Shown piece after piece: positions 43,900-53,929 of a stretch of 64,000 bases of DNA. Position numbers and translations under genes: made by a program. Origin of the DNA: Streptosporangium sp. NBC_01495 (lineage in GTDB: Bacteria > Actinomycetota > Actinomycetes > Streptosporangiales > Streptosporangiaceae); assembly GCF_036250735.1 (NCBI RefSeq), contig NZ_CP109430.1, positions 9,362,001-9,426,000 of the forward strand, written 5' to 3'. Within the stretch, counting starts at the first letter, position 1. Every line of letters begins with the position of its first letter. The notes below the pieces were generated by a model that was given only the letters and a program-made list of their open reading frames with translations, made no database searches and was not told the DNA's origin.

Positions 43900-46617
43900 T
43901 TACTGAACGGAGGTGAGCCTCCAGAGCTTGACGGCGCGGTCCTTGCCCGCCGAGACGGCCAGCGTACGGTCGCCGACGGTCATGACGCCCACCGCGTAGA
44001 CCCCGCCCTTGTGGGCTTTGACCGGCTTGCCGAGGGGCCTGCCCTCGGCCGGGTCCCAGAGCCGGACGGTCCCGTCCGTACTGCCCGACACCAGCACGGT
44101 GCGGCCGTCGACCTTGCCGAACGCCAGGGAGTAGACGTTGCCGCCGTGGCCCCCGAGCGGTTTGCCGATGGTCTTGGACGTCTTCGGGTCCCAGATCCTG
44201 ATCTTCTTGTCCTTGCCGCCCGAGGCGATCACGGCGCGGTCGCCCAGCTTGCCGAAGGCCACCGAGAAGACCGGTCCGCTGTGCCCCTTGTAGGCCTTGC
44301 CGTACCGCTTCCTGGTGACGAGGTCCCAGACGCCCAGCGTCTCGTCGGCGCTGGCGGACACGACGACGGACCGCTTGCCGATCTTGCCGAAGGCGAGCCA
44401 GTTGATGTCGTTGCGGTGCGCGGAGATGGTTTTGAGCAGCCTGCGGCTCTTCAGGTTCCAGAAGTAGAGCGTGCCGTCGCCGTCGCCGGTGACGGCGACC
44501 GGTGAGCCGTTCACGGTGCCGGCCGCGGCGGCGAAGACCGCGATGGGGTGGTAGCCCAGGGCCTTGCTCTTGCGGGACTTCAGGCTCCACAGGCGGACGG
44601 AGTGGTCGTAGCCGCCGGTCACCGCGTACGGCTTTCCACCGAAGGTGACGGTGGCGACCGCGTAGACCTCGCCCCGGTGGCCGCGGAGCCGGTGGAGCCT
44701 CTTGTGCTTGGCCGGGTCCCAGAGCCCGAGCGAACCGTCCTGGCTGCCCGAGAGCAGCGTGGACCTCTTCCCGATCTTGATGCCGGCGAGAGACTGGACG
44801 GCCTTGGTGTGCCCCTTGAGCGTCTTGCCGTCCTGGCCGTCGAAGACCACCGTCGTGGCCGGCGGGGTGGGCGGCTCGGGCGGCCCCGAGGTCGGGGCGG
44901 CCGTGAGGCTCGCCGTAGGGGCGGGAGTCAGGACTTGCGTGGCGGGTGTGGGGGCCTGCGTGACCTGCGCGGAGGGAGTCTGGGAGACGGGCGACGCCGG
45001 GGACGGTGTGGAGGGAGCAGGGGGTGGCGGCTTCCGCGCGCCGTCACCGGCCAGGGCGCTCCGCGTGACCGGGGGGTCGTCAGGGGTCGCGAGATCGTCC
45101 CGCATGTTCGGCACCGCGATCAGCGCGGCGGCGGCCAGGGTCAGGGCTCCCGAGAGCACCCCGGTCACGAGGATGGCACGCCTGCGCCGCTTGCCGCGCT
45201 CGCCGGGCGCGGCGGGGGGCGCGTCGCCGAAGAGGTCGGGGCGCTGTGGTGGCGGCGGGGGGTAGGCCCCCTCGGGCGGCGCGGGAGGTGGAGCGGGCTG
45301 CCGGCCCACGGGCGTCAGGTTGCCGGGGTAGCGCGCGGGCCCGGCGGGGGAGGCGAAGGGGTTGGGCGCGGGCGATGGACCGCCCGGGGCACCGGGGCGC
45401 TTCCGGGAGGCACCGGGAGCCGCACCGGGCCCACCGCGCGGGGTGCCATCGGGACGGCCATCAGGGCGGCCATCGGGAGCGTCCGCCCGGCCGCCCGGGG
45501 TACGGCCGGGGGCGGCACCGGGCCTCCCGCCCTCCTGGTCCTCCCCCGACGGCCGCACCCACAGCGTCTCGGGGGCGGGCGCCCGCTCGTCGGCGCGCGG
45601 CGGGGACGCGGGCGGCACGGCGCCCCCGGACGGCGACGTGGGCCCGGACGGGGTGGCGGAGGTGGACGGGGCGACGGACGTGGGCACGGGAGGAACGGCC
45701 GCCCCGGACGGGGTCACGGGCGCGGGCGGGATCGCCGGCGGAGTGCCGGACCCGGACGGGGTGCCGGACGGGACGGCGGGTGTCGCGGGCACGACGGGAA
45801 CCTCGTCGGACTGGGTCTCCAGGAGCGAGAACAGCACCTCCGAGGCACTGGGCCTTTCCTCGGCGTGTTTGCTGAGGCAGGAGGCGACGATCGGCCGCAG
45901 GGTGTCGGGGAGCGCGGACAGGTCCGGAGTCTCGTTCATCACCCGGTAGATGACCGCGGGCACGCTGTCCTGGCCGAACGCGGGCCGCCCGGTCGCGGCG
46001 AACGTCATCGTCAGACCCCAGCTGAACATGTCGGACGAGGGCTCGACGCGATGCCCCGAGACCTGTTCCGGCGACATGTAGGCGGGGGTGCCGACCACCC
46101 CGCTCGTCACGGTCATCGCCGAGTCCAGGGCCCTGGCGATGCCGAAGTCGATCACCCGGGGTCCGTCGGGGCCGAGCAGCACGTTGCTGGGCTTGAAATC
46201 GCGGTGCACGATGCCCGCCCGGTGGATGGCGGCCAGCGCGGTCACGGTGCCGACCGCGAGCCGGTGGAGCACGTTGCCGCTCCGTGGCCCCTCGGACTGC
46301 ACGACCCGCTGCAGGGACACGCCCTCGACCAGCTCGCTCACGATGTAGGGGCGATCGCCGTCCATGTGGGCGCCCAGCACCTGGGCGGTGCAGAACGGCG
46401 CCACCCGGCGGGCGGCGGAGACCTCGCGGAGGAACCGGTCGCCGTCCATGCCGGTGTCGCTCAGCCGGGGATGGAGCAGCTTGATCGCGACCATCACCCC
46501 GTTGGGGCCCCGGCCCGCGTAGACCACCCCCTGCGCTCCCTCGCCCAGGCGACCGAGCAACCGGTAGTCGCCCAGTGACTCGGGGTCCTCCCTGCGCAGC
46601 GGGTTCGTGTCCGGCAC
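43900..46617 (-). CDS. Serine/threonine protein kinase with extracellular seven-bladed WD40 propeller
   Basis: 905 residues. The kinase domain is at about 15-275: LGRLGEGAQGVVYAGR, catalytic Lys in VMVAIKLLHP, VHRDFKPSNVLLG, VIDFGIARAL, GTPAYMSPEQVSGHRVEPSS. A long Pro/Gly/Ser-rich juxtamembrane stretch (about 280-490) precedes one TM helix (AILVTGVLSGALTLAAAALI). Seven WD repeats follow, ending GLWD, RLWS, YFWN, GVWD, RIWD, RLWD and KLWR. It is a plausible receptor kinase; the ligand is unknown. The GTG at 46617 has GGGGAGG five bases upstream, whereas the ATG at 46707 does not. Confidence 0.93.
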   Translation of the reverse strand: MPDTNPLRREDPESLGDYRLLGRLGEGAQGVVYAGRGPNGVMVAIKLLHPRLSDTGMDGDRFLREVSAARRVAPFCTAQVLGAHMDGDRPYIVSELVEGVSLQRVVQSEGPRSGNVLHRLAVGTVTALAAIHRAGIVHRDFKPSNVLLGPDGPRVIDFGIARALDSAMTVTSGVVGTPAYMSPEQVSGHRVEPSSDMFSWGLTMTFAATGRPAFGQDSVPAVIYRVMNETPDLSALPDTLRPIVASCLSKHAEERPSASEVLFSLLETQSDEVPVVPATPAVPSGTPSGSGTPPAIPPAPVTPSGAAVPPVPTSVAPSTSATPSGPTSPSGGAVPPASPPRADERAPAPETLWVRPSGEDQEGGRPGAAPGRTPGGRADAPDGRPDGRPDGTPRGGPGAAPGASRKRPGAPGGPSPAPNPFASPAGPARYPGNLTPVGRQPAPPPAPPEGAYPPPPPQRPDLFGDAPPAAPGERGKRRRRAILVTGVLSGALTLAAAALIAVPNMRDDLATPDDPPVTRSALAGDGARKPPPPAPSTPSPASPVSQTPSAQVTQAPTPATQVLTPAPTASLTAAPTSGPPEPPTPPATTVVFDGQDGKTLKGHTKAVQSLAGIKIGKRSTLLSGSQDGSLGLWDPAKHKRLHRLRGHRGEVYAVATVTFGGKPYAVTGGYDHSVRLWSLKSRKSKALGYHPIAVFAAAAGTVNGSPVAVTGDGDGTLYFWNLKSRRLLKTISAHRNDINWLAFGKIGKRSVVVSASADETLGVWDLVTRKRYGKAYKGHSGPVFSVAFGKLGDRAVIASGGKDKKIRIWDPKTSKTIGKPLGGHGGNVYSLAFGKVDGRTVLVSGSTDGTVRLWDPAEGRPLGKPVKAHKGGVYAVGVMTVGDRTLAVSAGKDRAVKLWRLTSVQ

Positions 46618-46788
46618 GTGAGCCTCCCCGTTGTCCAGCCGTGAGGTGCTGGTATCCCCGAGTAACCAAAGATACGCAAACAAGTAATGTTCAGGTAGAT
46701 CATTCACTCTTCCGGCGTGTCCTGCTTACGTCATAATTCATGAAACAAATGGTGACTACGATCACCCCTAGCTCGTGCGGAGACGCCC

Positions 46789-47514
46789 ATGCGCCGAAGC
46801 TTCGGCACGCTTCTAGGTCTCAGCCTCATCACTCCGCTCGCGATTGTCCCCACCGCCTCGGCCGCCGCCACGAACGCGCCGTCCCTGGCTCCCTCCGGAG
46901 TCCCGCCCGCGTCCGCGGCGGGCGTTCTGGCCGCGGCCCCGTCCGGGGTACGGCAGGACAAGCCGTGGTCTGCGTTCAAGGTCACGGTGAAGGCCCCGAA
47001 ACGAGTCAGGAACGGCCGCGAGTTCATGTACGAGGTCAAGGTCACCAACCGGGGACCTGTCAAGGCCGACTACTACTACGTCGGCGGGACCGTGCTGCCA
47101 AAAGGCATTAACGACACCGTTTACTACAAAGGCCCCAAAGGCACTGACTGCGACTTCTACGACGACGGCTTCTGGTGCGTGACGCCGTGGATCCTTGAGA
47201 AGGGTGAGTCGGACACGGTACGCATCTGGGTCAAGCTCAACAAGCGGACCAAGGGCACCGCGGTCGCCAAGCTCGGTGCCGACAGCTGGAACGTCCCGAC
47301 CGGGGGCGGGGACCTCGGCCGCTCGGAATGGGAGCGGCTGGCCTTCCCCCACTGGTACTACCTCAAGACGGTCAAAACCAAGATCGTCCATCCCACGCCG
47401 CCCAAACCCAAGCCCAAGGGCGGAGGGGGCGGTTACAACCCGCCACCACCGCCACCCCCGCCGCCCCCACCCCCGCCGCCGCCGGACCGGCGCGAGGAGA
47501 AGAAGGACACCTGA
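46789..47514 (+). CDS. Secreted protein with DUF11-like domain and C-terminal polyproline (paralogue 1)
   Basis: 241 residues. A Sec signal (LLGLSLITPLAIVPTASA) and a Ser/Pro linker precede one DUF11-like beta domain (about 65-205). Conserved blocks are VTVKAPKRVRNGREFMYEVK, VTNRGPVKADYYYVGGTVLP, the Cys pair in GTDCDFYDDGFWC, a GTAVAKLGADSWNVPTGG block and a WYYLKTVKTKI ending. It then has a Gly run and about 15 consecutive Pro before a charged end. The genes at 51511 and 52326 share the same blocks. It may be a cell-wall exposed protein; function is unknown. It is divergent from the receptor kinase gene. Confidence 0.8.
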   Translation: MRRSFGTLLGLSLITPLAIVPTASAAATNAPSLAPSGVPPASAAGVLAAAPSGVRQDKPWSAFKVTVKAPKRVRNGREFMYEVKVTNRGPVKADYYYVGGTVLPKGINDTVYYKGPKGTDCDFYDDGFWCVTPWILEKGESDTVRIWVKLNKRTKGTAVAKLGADSWNVPTGGGDLGRSEWERLAFPHWYYLKTVKTKIVHPTPPKPKPKGGGGGYNPPPPPPPPPPPPPPPDRREEKKDT

Positions 47515-47551
47515 CGCCGTAGAGGTCCCGGCCTCCAACCGGGCACCACCG

Positions 47552-48202
47552 TCAGGCCAGGCCGTTCCGCACCGCGTAGAGAGCGGCCTGGGTCCTGTCC
47601 TGCACGCCCAGCTTCATCAGCACGTTGGAGACGTGGGTCTTCACCGTCTTCTCCGCCACCGCGAGCTGCCTGGCGATCTCCCGGTTGGAGCGGCCCGACG
47701 CGATCAGCGCGAGCACCTCGTGCTCCCGATCGGTCAGCGGCGCCACCTGCCTGCCCTCGTGCCCGCCCTCCCGCGCGGCCTGGACGGGCCCGGGACCGGA
47801 CAGCATCGCCTCGGCGGCCTCGGGAGCGAGCAGCACCTGGCCGCCGTACACCGCCCGGATCGCCTGCACGAGCGCGGCCGGTTCGACGTCCTTGTAGAGG
47901 AAACCCGCCGCGCCCGCCCGCATCGCCGGGGCCACGTCGCCCCTGTCGCTCACCGAGGTCAGCACGAGCACCCTCGGCGACAGCCCCCGTTCTCCCAGCA
48001 GGAGCAGCGCGCCGAGCCCGTCGAGGACCGGCATCCTCAGGTCGAGCAGCAGCACGTCAGGGGCGAGAGACTCCACCAGGGCGACCGCCGCGGCGCCGTC
48101 GGCGGCCTCGCCGACCACGTCGAGGTCCTCCTGCAGGTCCAGGAAGGTACGAAGGCCCTGCCTGACGACCGGATGGTCGTCGGCGATCAGGACGCGGATC
48201 AC
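47552..48202 (-). CDS. Response regulator, NarL/LuxR type
   Basis: 216 residues. The receiver has IADDHPVVRQGLRTFLDLQ (acidic pocket), the phosphorylated Asp in VLLLDLRMPVLDGL, and Lys in FLYKDVEP. The LuxR HTH is LTDREHEVLALIASGRSNRE plus AVAEKTVKTHVSNVLMKLG. The GTG at 48202 has GGAGG seven bases upstream; the longer frame to 48376 only reads repeated DNA. The sensor kinase gene lies immediately upstream on the same strand, separated by the repeat region. Confidence 0.95.
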   Translation of the reverse strand: MIRVLIADDHPVVRQGLRTFLDLQEDLDVVGEAADGAAAVALVESLAPDVLLLDLRMPVLDGLGALLLLGERGLSPRVLVLTSVSDRGDVAPAMRAGAAGFLYKDVEPAALVQAIRAVYGGQVLLAPEAAEAMLSGPGPVQAAREGGHEGRQVAPLTDREHEVLALIASGRSNREIARQLAVAEKTVKTHVSNVLMKLGVQDRTQAALYAVRNGLA

Positions 48203-48210
48203 CCGGTCAC

Positions 48211-48390
48211 CTCCGTCGGGATCGCGGACAGCGGATCGCACGGCCCCTCCGTCGGGATCGCGGACAGCGGACAGCGGATCGCACGGCCCCTCCGGACCAC
48301 GGGTCACAGGGTCGTCCCCCTTCACGCCCCCGATCACACGGGCACCTCGGTCATCTCCCTCCGGACCGCCGATCACACGGGCACCTCCAT
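48211..48390. repeat. Direct repeats between kinase and regulator genes
   Basis: CTCCGTCGGGATCGCGGACA plus GCGGATCGCACGGCCC occurs at 48211 and 48247. CGATCACACGGGCACCTC occurs at 48331 and 48370 (39 bp apart), and the right copy is the coding 3' end and stop of the kinase. The left copy is therefore a duplicated gene end. Confidence 0.85.
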
Positions 48391-49503
48391 CCGGACGAGC
48401 GTGCCCCTCCCGGGCTCCGACCTCACCCGCATGTTCCCGCCGACGGCCTCCGCCCTGTCGCCCATCGAGGCGATGCCCAGCCCCCGCCCCGCCGCGTCGG
48501 TCACGTCGAACCCGGCCCCGTCGTCGCTCACCTCAAGGAACACGCGCCCGCCCGCGCAGCCCAGCCGCACCTCGACGGCACGCGCCGCCGAGTGCCTGGA
48601 GGCGTTGTGCAGTGCCTCCTGGGCCACCCGCAGGACGGCCACCTCGATCGCGGGTTCGAGCTCGCACACCGGGGACTCCTCGAACGAGAACGAGGCCGGG
48701 TGGAGCCGGTCCAGCAGGCGGACGTGCTTGCGGAGCGTCTCGGCCAGGCCGTGCCGGTCGAGCTCGGCCGGGCGGAGCTCCACGATCACCGCGCGCAACT
48801 CGGCCAGTGCCTCTCCGGCCAGCCGCTCCACCCGGTCGAGCTCCCGCAGCGCCCGCGCGGGATCGGCCACGACCAGCGACGCGGCGGCCTGCGCGGTGAG
48901 GCGCAGCGAGAACAGCTTCTGGGTCACCGCGTCGTGCAGCTCCCTGGCCATCCGGGTGCGCTCCTCCACCAGCGTGAGCTCCCGGCCCCGCTCGTACAGG
49001 CGGGCGTTGGTGAGGGCGATCGCGGCGTGCGCGGCGAACATGGTGAGCAGCCGCTGGTCGGCCTCGGTGAAACCGCCGGGGGCCCGCTTGTTGGACAGGA
49101 AGATGATGCCGAGCACCTCGTCCCCGTCGAGGATCGGCACCCCGAGGAAGTCCTTGAGCACCGGATGGGCGCGCGGCCAGTGTTCGAACCTGGGGTCCCT
49201 GCGGATGTCGGGCAGCCGGACCGGCGCGCCCTCGCGCAACATGGCGCCGAGCATGCCGTGCTGGCGGGGCATGGGCCCGATCTCGTCCCACTGCTCGTCG
49301 GAGATGCCCTCGGCGACGAACTCGGCGAACGCCCCCTGGTCGTCGGGCACCCCCAGCGCGGCGTAGCGGGCGTCCAGCAACCGCCGCGCCGACCGCACGA
49401 TGACCTGGAGCACCTCACGGACCGACAGGTGCCTGGTCACCGCGAGGACGGCCGAGCTCACCGCGTGCAGCACGGCGTCCCGGTCCTCGCTCTCTGAGCT
49501 CAC
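48373..49503 (-). CDS. Sensor histidine kinase, GAF plus HisKA_3
   Basis: 376 residues, soluble. A GAF domain (about 20-170, GVPILDGDEVLGIIFLSNK, FAAHAAIALTNARLYERG) is followed by HisKA_3 with the phosphorylated His in RMARELHDAVTQKLFSLRL and the HATPase_c domain with N box AQEALHNASRHSAARAVEV and G box LEVSDDGAGFD. No TM segment is present, so the signal is cytoplasmic (small molecule, redox or gas). Its partner is the response regulator directly downstream. It starts at GTG 49503. Confidence 0.95.
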   Translation of the reverse strand: MSSESEDRDAVLHAVSSAVLAVTRHLSVREVLQVIVRSARRLLDARYAALGVPDDQGAFAEFVAEGISDEQWDEIGPMPRQHGMLGAMLREGAPVRLPDIRRDPRFEHWPRAHPVLKDFLGVPILDGDEVLGIIFLSNKRAPGGFTEADQRLLTMFAAHAAIALTNARLYERGRELTLVEERTRMARELHDAVTQKLFSLRLTAQAAASLVVADPARALRELDRVERLAGEALAELRAVIVELRPAELDRHGLAETLRKHVRLLDRLHPASFSFEESPVCELEPAIEVAVLRVAQEALHNASRHSAARAVEVRLGCAGGRVFLEVSDDGAGFDVTDAAGRGLGIASMGDRAEAVGGNMRVRSEPGRGTLVRMEVPV

Positions 49504-49626
49504 GAACCGACTCTAGGCGGCGGCGGACACCCGCCGCGTACGCCATCGGTCCTAGGCCCATCAGCCCACCCCGGGCCCGGTCCGGCGGCCGATGTGCGGC
49601 GGGGGCGCGGCTCCTAGCGTCGAGGC

Positions 49627-50292
49627 ATGACGAAGACCGCACTCATCACCGGCGCCTCCCGTGGCCTCGGCCTGGCACTGGCCCGCTCCCTCGCCGCCGA
49701 CGGCTGGCGGCTCATCCTCACCGCGCGGGGCGAGGACGCGCTGCGATCCGCCGCGGACGAGCTCGGCGCCCTCGCCCTGGCCGGAGACGTCGCCGACCCC
49801 GCTCACCGGGACCGGCTGGCGGGGGCCGTACGGGAACACGGCGGGCTGGACCTGCTGGTCAACAACGCGTCGGGGCTGGGCGCGGTCCCGCTGCCGCCGC
49901 TGGCCGGATACCCGGTCGACACGCTTGAGGAGCTTTTCCGGGCCAACGTGCTGGCCCCGCTGGCACTGATCCAGGCGAACCTGCGCTGGCTCAGGGAGCG
50001 GCGCGGCGCGATCGTGAACATCTCCTCCGACGCGGCGGTGGAGGCGTACGAGGGCTGGGGCGGGTACGGCGCGACCAAGGCGGCCCTGGAGCAGCTCTCC
50101 CACGTGCTGGCCGTCGAGGAGCCCGACGTCGCGATCTGGTGGGTTGATCCGGGCGAGATGTCCACCGCCATGCTCGCCGACGCGGTCGGTGCCGGGGAGG
50201 CGGCGGAGGCCCCGGGCCCGGAGACCGTCGTGCCCACCCTGCGGCGGCTGATCGCCGACCGTCCGGACAGCGGCCGGGTGAGGCACGGATGA
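49627..50292 (+). CDS. Short-chain dehydrogenase/reductase
   Basis: 221 residues, classical SDR. The cofactor motif is ALITGASRGLGLALARSLA, followed by LLVNNASG. The catalytic Ser is in NISSDAAVEAY and YxxxK is in GGYGATKAALEQL; the product is NAD(P)H-dependent. The substrate is unknown. It is 61 bp upstream of the queA-like gene on the same strand and probably shares its transcript, an SDR/QueA pairing I recall from other actinobacteria. Confidence 0.9.
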   Translation: MTKTALITGASRGLGLALARSLAADGWRLILTARGEDALRSAADELGALALAGDVADPAHRDRLAGAVREHGGLDLLVNNASGLGAVPLPPLAGYPVDTLEELFRANVLAPLALIQANLRWLRERRGAIVNISSDAAVEAYEGWGGYGATKAALEQLSHVLAVEEPDVAIWWVDPGEMSTAMLADAVGAGEAAEAPGPETVVPTLRRLIADRPDSGRVRHG

Positions 50293-50353
50293 ACGTACGG
50301 GTCATCGAGCGAGGAGAGCGTATGAGAACCGTACGGGCGTGCGGGGAGGGGAG

Positions 50354-51418
50354 ATGAGCACGCCCGCGGCGGACGCCATGGCCGCGGACTTCGTGCTCCC
50401 GCGCGAGCTGGAGGCGCACGAACCTCCGGAGGCCCGGGGGCTGGCCCGTGACGGGGTGCGCCTGCTGGTCTCCGACCGGGGCACCGGAGAGGTCGGCCAC
50501 CACACGTTCGCCGAGCTTCCCGGCCTGTTGGGCCCCGGCGACCTGCTGGTGGTCAACAACTCCGGCACGCTTCCCGCCGCCGTCCGGCTGGACCGGCTCG
50601 CGGTGCACTTCTCCACCGAGCGCGAGGACGGGACCTGGCTGGTCGAGCTCCGCCGGCGCCGGGAGTGGGCGGGCTCTCCCGGAGGCCCCGAGGGCGCGGA
50701 GCCGGCCGGTGGGCCCTACCGGGGCGGCGCGGACGGGGAGTGGCTGCCGCTGCCGGGCGGGGCGACGCTGCGGCTGCTGGGGCGCGAGACGCCACGCCTG
50801 TGGCGGGCGAGCCTGGACCGCGAGGTCACGGGCTACCTCCGCCGGTACGGCGTGCCGATCCGCTACTCGTACGTGGACAGGGACTGGCCGCTGGCCGACT
50901 ACCAGACCGTGTTCGGGGTGCGGCCGGGCAGCGCGGAGATGCCCAGCGCGGGGCGGCCGTTCACCACCGGGCTGGTGACCTCCCTGGTGTCGCGCGGGGT
51001 CGGGATCGCGCCGATCACCCTGCACACCGGGGTGGCGTCCCCGGAGAAGGACGAGCCGCCGTATCCGGAGCGGTTCGAGGTGCCCGAGGCCACCGCGCGG
51101 CAGGTGGAGCTCGTGCGCGAGTCCGGCGGCCGGGTGATCGCGGTCGGCACGACCGTGGTCAGGGCGCTGGAGACGGCCGCGCTGGCCACCGGCCGGGTCC
51201 GGGCCGCGGACGGCTGGACCTCGCACATCGTGACCCCCGAGGTCGGGGTGCGGGCGGTGAACGGCCTGCTCACCGGGCTGCACGAGCCGCGCTCCAGCCA
51301 CCTGCTGATGCTGTCGGCGATCGCCGGCCGCGACCTGCTCTCGCGGTCGTACGCGGAGGCGCTCGGAGAGGGCTATCTCTGGCACGAATTCGGCGACGTC
51401 CACCTGATCACCGGTTAG
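50354..51418 (+). CDS. S-adenosylmethionine:tRNA ribosyltransferase-isomerase (QueA) family protein
   Basis: 354 residues, near normal QueA length. Family blocks include AADFVLPRELEAHEPPEARG, FAELPGLLGPGDLLVVNNSG, TGLVTSLVSRGVGIAPITLH, VVRALETAALATGRV and NGLLTGLHEPRSSHLLMLSA. QueA installs epoxyqueuosine on tRNA using SAM. No other queuosine gene is nearby, so in this context it could act on a different substrate. The ATG at 50354 has GGGGAGG just upstream. A non-canonical role is inference. Confidence 0.85.
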   Translation: MSTPAADAMAADFVLPRELEAHEPPEARGLARDGVRLLVSDRGTGEVGHHTFAELPGLLGPGDLLVVNNSGTLPAAVRLDRLAVHFSTEREDGTWLVELRRRREWAGSPGGPEGAEPAGGPYRGGADGEWLPLPGGATLRLLGRETPRLWRASLDREVTGYLRRYGVPIRYSYVDRDWPLADYQTVFGVRPGSAEMPSAGRPFTTGLVTSLVSRGVGIAPITLHTGVASPEKDEPPYPERFEVPEATARQVELVRESGGRVIAVGTTVVRALETAALATGRVRAADGWTSHIVTPEVGVRAVNGLLTGLHEPRSSHLLMLSAIAGRDLLSRSYAEALGEGYLWHEFGDVHLITG

Positions 51419-51510
51419 CCGGCCAGTCAGTCACAAGGGTTTTCCAAGTCGGGCCTCGCATGCTGATCGGTGTTCGACGGAGATTGACGAAATCCGACTG
51501 GAGTAAAGAA

Positions 51511-52050
51511 ATGCGCCGGCACCTGACCGCCTTCGCCGCCATCGCCCTGGCGGGAGGCATGCTGCTCACCCCCGGGACCGCGAACGCGGCGGCTCCCCGG
51601 ATCACCGCCCCGCAGGGGGCCGCGAACCAGCCGCTCGCGCCGTTGAGGACGACCGTCTTCTATCCGCGCAGGGCCTGGGCGGGTGACTCGTACGTCTACA
51701 CGCTCAAGATCAAGAACGTCGGCAGGTGGTACACCGACATCGCCTACGTCGGCGGACACCTTCCCTCGCAGGTCTCCAGGATCCGCATCACGGGCAAGCC
51801 CCCCGGCTCGTACTGCGAGGTCTCGGGGCGCGAGGTGGGCTGCCTGCTCGACACCCTGAACCCCGGCAGGACGGCCACCCTCAAGGTCAGGGTCTGGCTG
51901 AAGAACGGCGCCCGGGGCACCGCGACCGCCAATTTCGGTTCGGTCTCGATCGACGTCCCCGCAGGCGGGCTGGAAACCCTCGACATCCACGGCATCGACA
52001 TCGGCACCGACGTCAAGTACGTGCGGGTGAAGACCCAGGTCCTCCGCTAG
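51511..52050 (+). CDS. Secreted DUF11-like protein (paralogue 2)
   Basis: 179 residues. A Sec signal (FAAIALAGGMLLTPGTANA, cut after NAA) is followed by one beta domain with YTLKIKNVGRWYTDIAYVGG, HLPSQVSRIRI, the Cys pair in SYCEVSGREVGC, TATLKVRVWLKNGARGTATA, SIDVPAGG and VKYVRVKTQVLR. It lacks the polyproline tail of paralogue 1. GGAG lies seven bases before the ATG. It is the most divergent of the three. Function unknown. Confidence 0.78.
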   Translation: MRRHLTAFAAIALAGGMLLTPGTANAAAPRITAPQGAANQPLAPLRTTVFYPRRAWAGDSYVYTLKIKNVGRWYTDIAYVGGHLPSQVSRIRITGKPPGSYCEVSGREVGCLLDTLNPGRTATLKVRVWLKNGARGTATANFGSVSIDVPAGGLETLDIHGIDIGTDVKYVRVKTQVLR

Positions 52051-52325
52051 CCGCACATTTCGCACGCGACCTTCTGACCAGGGGCGATTACCGAAGGCCA
52101 GAGAAAATGGCGCGCCCGGAAACGCTCCTGGCGGTAACGACGCGGTCGCGCGGGACGGGCCCGCGCGGAACCTTGTGCCGTCCGGTACGACGCCACATCG
52201 AACGGCTCCATTCAAATCATGCAACGAAATATAATTTCTCTTTACATCTATGTATGTGATAAAACGCTGCGGACTTTATGGGACGTTCCACACGTCCCCC
52301 TGACTCTTCAGCTGGGAGACGTTTG

Positions 52326-52877
52326 ATGCGCCACCCGATCTCCAAGATCATCGCTCTTGCTCTGGTCACCCCGCTGGCCGGCGGCATGTTCCTCGCCGCC
52401 CCCGCGTCGGCCGCTTCGGCGCAGGCACCGGCGGCGGCCGTGAAGGCGGAGCCGTACTCCACCTTCGCGGTCACCGTCTCCGCGCCGAAGAAGGTCAAGG
52501 CGAACGGGAAGATCACCTACAAGATCAAGGCCGTTAACAAAGGCCCTTACGAGGCCGACCTCCTCTACTTTGGCGGCCAGCTGCCCAAGGGCTCGAAGCT
52601 CACCGCGGTCGGCGGTCCCAAGGGCACCGAATGTGACAGCTACGAGGACGGGTTCTGGTGCTGGGTCCCCCACATCGTGAAAGTCGGTGACTACGAGACC
52701 ATGGCGATCACGGTGAAGCTCGGCAAGAAGTCGGGACGGACCGCCGAGGCCGTCCTCGGCGTCGACAGCTACGACGTCCCGACCGGCGCCGACACCCTCT
52801 CCAGGGACGAACTGGAGCGCATGGGCCTCAAGCACTGGTATTTCGTGAAGAAGGTCAAGACCCAGATCGCGCGCTGA
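52326..52877 (+). CDS. Secreted DUF11-like protein (paralogue 3)
   Basis: 183 residues. A Sec signal (ALALVTPLAGGMFLAAPASA) and the beta domain with FAVTVSAPKKVKANGKITYK, AVNKGPYEADLLYFGGQLPK, the Cys pair in GTECDSYEDGFWC, LGVDSYDVPTG and WYFVKKVKTQIAR are present. By eye it is closer to paralogue 1 than to 2, sharing SYEDGFWC versus FYDDGFWC. GGGAG lies seven bases before the ATG; the upstream region is AT-rich. It ends before a good terminator. Function unknown; probably exported to the wall or medium. Confidence 0.8.
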   Translation: MRHPISKIIALALVTPLAGGMFLAAPASAASAQAPAAAVKAEPYSTFAVTVSAPKKVKANGKITYKIKAVNKGPYEADLLYFGGQLPKGSKLTAVGGPKGTECDSYEDGFWCWVPHIVKVGDYETMAITVKLGKKSGRTAEAVLGVDSYDVPTGADTLSRDELERMGLKHWYFVKKVKTQIAR

Positions 52878-53248: not shown

Positions 53249-53929
53249 ATGGCTGATCTGAGAGTCGTCCTGGCCGAGGACCACTACCTGGTGCGCGAGG
53301 GCACCCGCAGGCTCCTGGAGACCTCCGGCGAGATCGAGGTGGTGGCCGCCGTGGGCACCGCGGACGAGCTGCTCGACGCCGCCAGGCGGCTGCGTCCCGG
53401 CGTGGTGGTGACCGACATCCGGATGCCGGGCTCGGCCGATCTCGTCCGCCCGGGGATGGAGGGCATCGACGCGGCACACCTCATCCGCGCCGCCTCACGG
53501 GACATCGGGGTCGTGGTGCTCTCCCAGTTCTCTGACGCGATGTTCGCCCTAGACCTGTTCAGGGACGGCACCGAGGGTCGCGCGTACCTGCTCAAGGACC
53601 GGGTCGGTGACATCGACGAGCTGCTCGGCGCGATCAGGTCGGTGGCCGGGGGCGGCTCGGTGATCGACCCCAAGGTGGTGGAGGGCCTGCTGGCCAAGCG
53701 CGGGGTACGCGGCAGTCCCCCGCCCGCGGAGCTGACGCCCAGGGAGCTGGACGTGCTCAGGGAGATGGCGCACGGCCTGTCCAACGGGGGCATCGCCCGC
53801 GCCCTGCACCTGTCGGTCTCCGCGATCGAGAAGCACGTCAACTCGATCTTCATGAAGCTGGCCCTGGAGAACAGCCCCGACACCCACCGCCGGGTGGCGG
53901 CCGTCATCACCTATCTGGGCTCGGCCTAG
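53249..53929 (+). CDS. Orphan response regulator, NarL/LuxR type
   Basis: 226 residues. The receiver has LAEDHYLVREGTRRLLETSG, the phospho-acceptor Asp in VVVTDIRMPG and Lys in YLLKDRVG. An extra loop of about 10 residues (SADLVRPGMEG) sits after the acceptor. The LuxR HTH is LTPRELDVLREMAHGLSNGG plus SVSAIEKHVNSIFMKLAL. No kinase gene is adjacent. The ATG at 53249 lacks a strong ribosome site. Confidence 0.9.
   Translation: MADLRVVLAEDHYLVREGTRRLLETSGEIEVVAAVGTADELLDAARRLRPGVVVTDIRMPGSADLVRPGMEGIDAAHLIRAASRDIGVVVLSQFSDAMFALDLFRDGTEGRAYLLKDRVGDIDELLGAIRSVAGGGSVIDPKVVEGLLAKRGVRGSPPPAELTPRELDVLREMAHGLSNGGIARALHLSVSAIEKHVNSIFMKLALENSPDTHRRVAAVITYLGSA

Follow-up and report, generated by a model that had tools for sequence, protein, structure and literature searches.

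Receptor Ser/Thr kinases of the PASTA type are bacterial membrane kinases with an outward sensor whose ligands are cell-wall fragments. To our knowledge the outside signal is known for very few bacterial Ser/Thr kinases. We analysed a stretch of 64,000 nucleotides from Streptosporangium sp. NBC_01495 (assembly GCF_036250735.1, contig NZ_CP109430.1, positions 9,362,001 to 9,426,000; hereafter the window, to which coordinates refer unless a locus is named), in which the gene of a putative membrane Ser/Thr kinase lies divergently beside gene A, the first of three genes (A, B and C) for small proteins that are likely exported. From comparative evidence, A might work with this kinase from outside the cell, a reading that we favor tentatively and with somewhat less than even confidence. 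The kinase resembles the PASTA-type enzymes in being a membrane kinase with a putative outward sensor, but this sensor is a WD40 propeller and the ligand proposed for it is a protein. By domain description, not by sequence, it is also like PkwA of Thermomonospora curvata, which combines a Ser/Thr kinase with WD40 repeats; a term search of PMC6113231 found neither "membrane" nor "extracellular" nor "ligand" in its main text.

Proteins A, B and C carry a DUF11 domain. According to PMC12617251, DUF11 was renamed CLIPPER in 2025 and is typically a surface stalk domain, mostly found in long adhesins. Structure 9IFR, the CLIPPER domain of an Acinetobacter adhesin, has an isopeptide bond between Lys715 and Asn806 with Asp748. 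The same source states that the bond is not universal across DUF11 and that disulfides occur in 29.7% of the CLIPPER domains having it. A, B and C are like 9IFR in sequence, matching at or over the Pfam cut-off, and, for B and C, in the predicted kind of beta sandwich, for which 9IFR is the best Foldseek match. They differ from it in having one domain per protein, no stalk, and the isopeptide Lys/Asp/Asn arrangement not kept; where 9IFR carries a CTTC motif (PMC12617251), they have an invariant Cys pair with 8 residues between. The fibrillar adhesins of Actinomycetota with DUF11 stalks share apparent export and the DUF11 domain with them, whereas A, B and C comprise only 179–241 residues in one domain, without repeats, adhesive domain or anchor.

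The initial annotation had reported three open reading frames (ORFs) at 46789, 51511 and 52326, all of which were found there, and its remark that one of them stands beside a receptor kinase gene turned out to be the most informative. The features concerned are the following.

43900..46619, minus strand: kinase, partner gene of A; putative transmembrane Ser/Thr kinase with C-terminal WD40 propeller (Pkinase and WD40 Pfam matches)
46620..46788, no strand: divergent intergenic region between kinase and A, 169 bp (from the sequence; stretches conserved among A-type relatives)
46789..47514, plus strand: gene A, likely exported CLIPPER/DUF11 protein of 241 residues with Pro-rich tail and RREEKKDT end (Pfam, alignment)
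46960..47391, plus strand: CLIPPER/DUF11 domain of A (Pfam match 70–161; alignment with C)
47149–47151 and 47176–47178, plus strand: Cys121 and Cys130 of A
47392..47511, plus strand: Pro-rich tail of A; RREEKKDT is encoded by the last 8 codons, 47488–47511
51511..52050, plus strand: gene B, likely exported single-domain CLIPPER/DUF11 protein of 179 residues, without Trp pair
51814–51816 and 51841–51843, plus strand: Cys102 and Cys111 of B
52326..52877, plus strand: gene C, likely exported single-domain CLIPPER/DUF11 protein of 183 residues, with Trp111 and Trp171
52632–52634 and 52659–52661, plus strand: Cys103 and Cys112 of C

Joint occurrence of gene A and the kinase gene

We examined 71 loci and kept 65, of which 63 reach gene 43105 and are informative; L115 was excluded from the count since its contig ends before that gene. 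Identity of at least 74% in the kinase domain defined a kinase orthologue. Of the 63 loci, 27 have the kinase orthologue together with A and 36 lack the two; neither occurs alone. In this count A was recognised by its tail, which is partly circular, and a recount therefore went by position and ignored the tail: the interval from gene 43105 to the response regulator contains a family gene in 26/26 loci with the kinase and in 0/34 without it. The three loci lacking the regulator are L062, which has kinase and A, and L077 and L116, which have neither. Outside the 63 loci, L096 combines a kinase (best piece 70% identical) with a tail-bearing A. Where the pair is absent, gene 43105 and the regulator adjoin, for example at about 160 bp in L063.

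Ser/Thr kinases are abundant in these organisms: each of 11 genomes had 45–69 kinase-domain matches. Among the kinase matches listed for 10 genomes that lack the pair, none exceeded 63% identity, compared with at least 74% for orthologues. We placed the pair on a marker tree of histidine kinase, SerB and regulator comprising 53 loci (20 with the pair, 33 without), where it changes 9 times; all 8 independent pairs of loci agree (p 0.0078), and a version with 54 loci gave the same result. The tandem genes B and C, 275 bp apart here, served as a control: both are present in 23 of the 65 loci, B only in 8 and C only in 34. The marker tree requires 8 changes for B and 6 for C; among the 4 independent pairs differing in C, B follows in none.

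The kinase gene itself matches Pkinase (2e-40) and WD40 (8.4e-38) in Pfam. In its product the kinase domain is followed by a linker that varies between 64 and 634 residues, then by a hydrophobic segment and finally by a stretch with WD40 repeats, 362–405 residues long. As judged by hydropathy only, a hydrophobic segment follows the kinase domain in each of 29 kinases, which include two pairs from the same genome, with a best 19-residue mean of 1.96 to 2.86. This topology would probably place the WD40 propeller outside the cell. When reading the sequence we found the ORF readable up to 46707 and a good ribosome-binding site preceding the GTG at 46619; this GTG is most likely the start, and the gap between kinase and A is therefore 169 bp.

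The C-terminal ends of A-type proteins could be read in 27 of 28 cases. They consist of a Pro-rich stretch followed by (E/R)KK(D/G)T or the close variants NKKKDT, NSKKDT, NRRKST and EKKDI. The coding pattern for EKKDT and stop has a single occurrence in the host genome (11.1 Mb in two contigs, the basis of our genome-wide searches), and for this reason the tail was rejected as a sortase, lipoprotein or general sorting signal. Nonomuraea soli (L091, 9926–11295) has A twice in tandem next to the kinase, both copies with the tail.

Fold and conserved residues of A, B and C

Sec-type signal sequences, claimed by the initial annotation, were confirmed by eye in all three proteins, and the top hydrophobic windows of each lie within the signal sequence. 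Export is likely on this basis. Neither reading by eye nor hydropathy revealed an LPXTG motif, a lipobox or a C-terminal hydrophobic segment in A, B or C. Pairwise BLASTP aligned A and C at 50% identity over 142 positions (E 2e-46), A and B at 28% over 173 (E 3e-14) and B and C at 29% over 188 (E 3e-14). The homology thus extends across the folded part and beyond low complexity, and by these alignments the three are true paralogues. A fourth, more distant paralogue is encoded elsewhere in the chromosome (G000:C1:3305902-3306336, E 1.4e-20). This copy (L033 6903–7415, in G000:C1:3299000-3314000) is B-like and without Trp pair; comparable stand-alone copies are found repeatedly in the genus.

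The proposed DUF11-like domain was borne out by Pfam and by the predicted structures. In hmmscan A (25.7 bits) and C (29.1 bits) exceed the curated cut-off of 24.6 for DUF11 (PF01345), while B stays just below it with 24.5 bits in hmmscan and lies above it with 25 in the genome scan; no further Pfam family was above its cut-off in A, B or C. The statement that no named family has this combination therefore holds in part: the domain is Pfam DUF11/CLIPPER, and for the single-domain Cys-pair subfamily no name was found in a literature search that mostly did not reach subscription papers. The host genome contains 30 DUF11 matches, 18 of them within one 3954-residue ORF, likely a long surface protein. 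Profile comparison linked the subfamily with DUF11 repeats from this genome (probability 93.8%, E 1.7e-7). In the 3954-residue ORF (L106, G000:C1:8813800-8824000) some DUF11 matches have, by eye, Lys, Asp and Asn near the places of the isopeptide triad.

B and C were modelled with AlphaFold2, for which the input alignments held 38 and 41 sequences, respectively. They reached a predicted local distance difference test score (pLDDT) of 87.3 and a predicted template modelling score (pTM) of 0.80 for B, and 89.2 and 0.81 for C. Both are predicted as the same CnaA-like Ig beta sandwich with much the same strand order. Foldseek returned 9IFR as top match for B (E 5.7e-7) and C (E 6.3e-7). With VIA-align 9IFR ranked first for B (Z 13.0, root-mean-square deviation (rmsd) 2.8, 120 aligned) and tenth, tied, for C (Z 12.3, rmsd 3.6, 119 aligned; best row Z 13.3). 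Since integrin and pilin beta sandwiches are tied with 9IFR, the fold alone is unspecific. When solved structures were searched by sequence alone, the best matches were phage spike proteins (E 0.029), which we judged to be chance.

The sequence blocks named in the initial annotation fared differently among the three proteins. A GG-x-LP block is present in all of them, with one residue extra in A, as are two Cys with 8 residues between. GTxCxxYxDGFWC describes A and C, whereas B reads GSYCEVSGREVGC. D(S/I)xxVPxG likewise fits A and C and is replaced by SIDVPAG in B, so that the VPxG block is what all three have in common. The VKT(K/Q)(I/V) ending applies to B and C; in A it marks the domain end only, beyond which follow the Pro-rich tail and RREEKKDT.

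Among 42 aligned members the Cys pair is invariant, with a spacing of 8 residues in 40 and 9 in 2. In the models of B and C both Cys lie in two adjacent strands of one hairpin, a predicted placement that fits the need of a disulfide, which these proteins may well form. In the Asp column of the isopeptide triad we found Gly in 38/42, Ala in 3, Val in 1 and Asp in none. Lys occupies the Lys column in 9/42 members, and the columns two away on either side in 19 and 14. In the expected Asn region (columns 138–144) Asn occurs in at most 1/42, the Asn position sitting at the edge of the profile alignment. To judge from this alignment, the subfamily lacks the Lys/Asn/Asp triad. It would thus represent a CLIPPER subfamily in which the isopeptide bond was lost and the invariant Cys pair retained, and which exists as single domains instead of a stalk.

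Trp111 and Trp171 are present in 29 and 30 of 35 A/C rows, and the pair in 0/7 B rows. A quick tree of 116 domains, issued with a long-branch warning, separated 31 B-type rows from the A and C rows. On this tree the A rows require two changes on the best topology, and supported branches force no more than one.

Locus, distribution and leaders

The other genes of the region are listed here.

47552..48376, minus strand: NarL/LuxR-type response regulator, conserved locus gene (Pfam, synteny)
48373..49503, minus strand: GAF-HisKA_3 histidine kinase, conserved locus gene (Pfam, synteny)
49627..50292, plus strand: short-chain dehydrogenase, conserved locus gene (Pfam, synteny)
50339..51418, plus strand: QueA-like tRNA ribosyltransferase-isomerase, conserved locus gene (Pfam Queuosine_synth, synteny)
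53249..53929, plus strand: orphan NarL-type response regulator, present in some relatives only (Pfam; only some loci have a copy, with at least 89% identity)

The usual gene order is ABC ATPase, gene 43105, kinase, A, response regulator, histidine kinase, dehydrogenase, QueA, B, C, (orphan regulator), acyltransferase, acetyltransferase and SerB, with losses in places. An orphan regulator does follow C, as had been annotated, but the histidine kinase/regulator pair encoded between A and B is retained in more relatives. By locus comparison the closest named relatives are Streptosporangium species. In the close relatives L061 and L062 dehydrogenase and QueA are lost, yet A, B, C and the kinase are retained; L062 has lost histidine kinase and regulator as well. 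Compared with Planobispora, A, B and C are 68, 65 and 59% identical, versus 84–87% for histidine kinase, response regulator and dehydrogenase. They diverge about as fast as acyltransferase (67%) and acetyltransferase (65%); QueA stands at 72%.

A profile of the three proteins matched in 16/16 genomes of the genus and 65/150 of the family, where weak matches may be plain DUF11. With a 42-row profile searched against 296 genomes of the class, all of the listed matches above 60 bits fell within Streptosporangiaceae, and the best one listed from outside the family (59.3 bits) lies inside an ORF of 5235 residues. Among 200 genomes of the order 118 had a match, one of them outside the family (E 7.2e-6). 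Strong matches thus appear confined to Streptosporangiaceae in these searches, mostly at one conserved locus. Twenty loci from named genera belong to Streptosporangium, Planobispora, Planomonospora, Sphaerisporangium, Microbispora, Thermocatellispora, Nonomuraea and Acrocarpospora. The idea of a sporangium coat was dropped, because members also occur in Microbispora and Nonomuraea, which are not known to form typical sporangia.

The leader of B (51430–51511) is strongly conserved and contains an inverted repeat, with the ribosome-binding site covered by its 3' half and a compensatory change in L051. As an RNA element it was rejected: 94.3% of cells are paired across 14 sequences, but 52 of 500 shuffles equalled it on every measure. 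In the leader of C (52250–52325) a variable GC-rich hairpin comes after a stretch that is conserved and resembles a promoter, GTGATAAAACGCTGCGGACTTT; across the class the folding z is only mildly low. Mean folding z against shuffles was -0.22 for A (13 rows), -0.51 for B (13 rows) and -0.87 for the C class (38 rows, a few of them B-like). Between 46600 and 53400 three Rfam matches were obtained, all under the gathering score.

Possible roles of A, B and C

If A works with the kinase, the three proteins would be exported single-domain CLIPPER beta sandwiches acting outside the membrane, and a disulfide across one beta hairpin would close each domain in place of the isopeptide bond of stalk-type CLIPPER domains. 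The domain of A would be seated in the envelope, from where its Pro-rich tail with the conserved end could reach the outer WD40 propeller, so that A, as a ligand or bound regulator, would set kinase activity. The tail-less B and C would be envelope-bound relatives which share the surroundings of A but not the kinase. The most specific version, in which A is a dedicated kinase ligand, a disulfide-closed CLIPPER domain in the envelope whose Pro-rich arm offers a C-terminal peptide to the propeller, we regard as rather unlikely. A literature search that mostly did not reach subscription papers found no WD40-kinase ligand and no arrangement of tail and kinase like that of A; the pairing appears undescribed there, although the domain itself is known. 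We know of no other ligand-sensor arrangement of a CLIPPER tail peptide with an extracellular WD40 propeller.

Several points weigh against a partnership of A and the kinase. They are divergent neighbors, and therefore one deletion or transfer can remove both; since adjacency permits joint loss by single events, their co-occurrence is support and not proof. The comparison with B and C weakens this objection without removing it, and draws on few independent pairs. L078, L117 and L118 have a distant kinase (43–46%) and no A. WD40 propellers bind many partners, and the kinase ligand could be something else. Docking of the KK end by charge found no support either: the A domain is basic (mean net charge +10.5), and so is the kinase's outer part in every orthologue (+3 to +46), which makes simple charge attraction unlikely. 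Both could instead touch an anionic wall polymer.

It is conceivable, though we doubt it, that A, B and C have a role in envelope structure only, as basic wall or surface proteins binding wall polymers or polysaccharide (A and C via the Trp pair) without any signalling, the A/kinase cassette resulting from the shared promoter region. The domains of B (mean +10.8) and C (+8.4) are net basic like that of A, the Trp pair is frequent in A/C rows and absent from B rows, and DUF11 is typically a surface stalk domain (PMC12617251). The three proteins also diverge faster than the two-component genes and the dehydrogenase, though not faster than acyltransferase and acetyltransferase. A purely structural role, however, gives no reason for kinase and A to remain joined through 9 changes where B and C separate, or for the C-terminal end of A to be conserved.

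Instead of activating the kinase, A might restrain it or be its client, for example as a cap that comes off under envelope stress or as a protein expressed under the control of the kinase. Such a role would draw on the same comparative evidence and on the divergent genes with their shared region of 169 bp. This evidence speaks alike for activation, inhibition and regulation of expression, and we consider A in such a role improbable. A role as secreted effectors aimed at phages or competitors, or as decoys of such effectors, is very improbable: the proteins are small, apparently exported and variable in sequence and copy number, but A, B and C had no match to a PADLOC defence model at E 0.01, and among the top structure matches inspected the beta sandwich predicted for B and C showed no known catalytic fold. 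The kinase does match PADLOC kinase models, but these hits reflect the kinase domain in general. An origin as remnants of a larger fibrillar adhesin, whether leftover stalk domains or fibre-forming subunits, is barely credible even though DUF11 mostly forms the stalks of long adhesins (PMC12617251) and the same genome has the 3954-residue ORF with its 18 matches, since these are complete short genes with own signal sequences and starts conserved in dozens of genomes, and they lack the repeats, adhesive domain and anchor of an adhesin.

Under the partnership of A and kinase that we prefer, repeated joint gain or loss would link a single membrane kinase with a single secreted protein, which provides a concrete pair for testing. 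For the CLIPPER family, the three proteins may represent a subfamily in which the isopeptide bond was abandoned, the Cys pair was kept and the stalk was left for single-domain secreted proteins.

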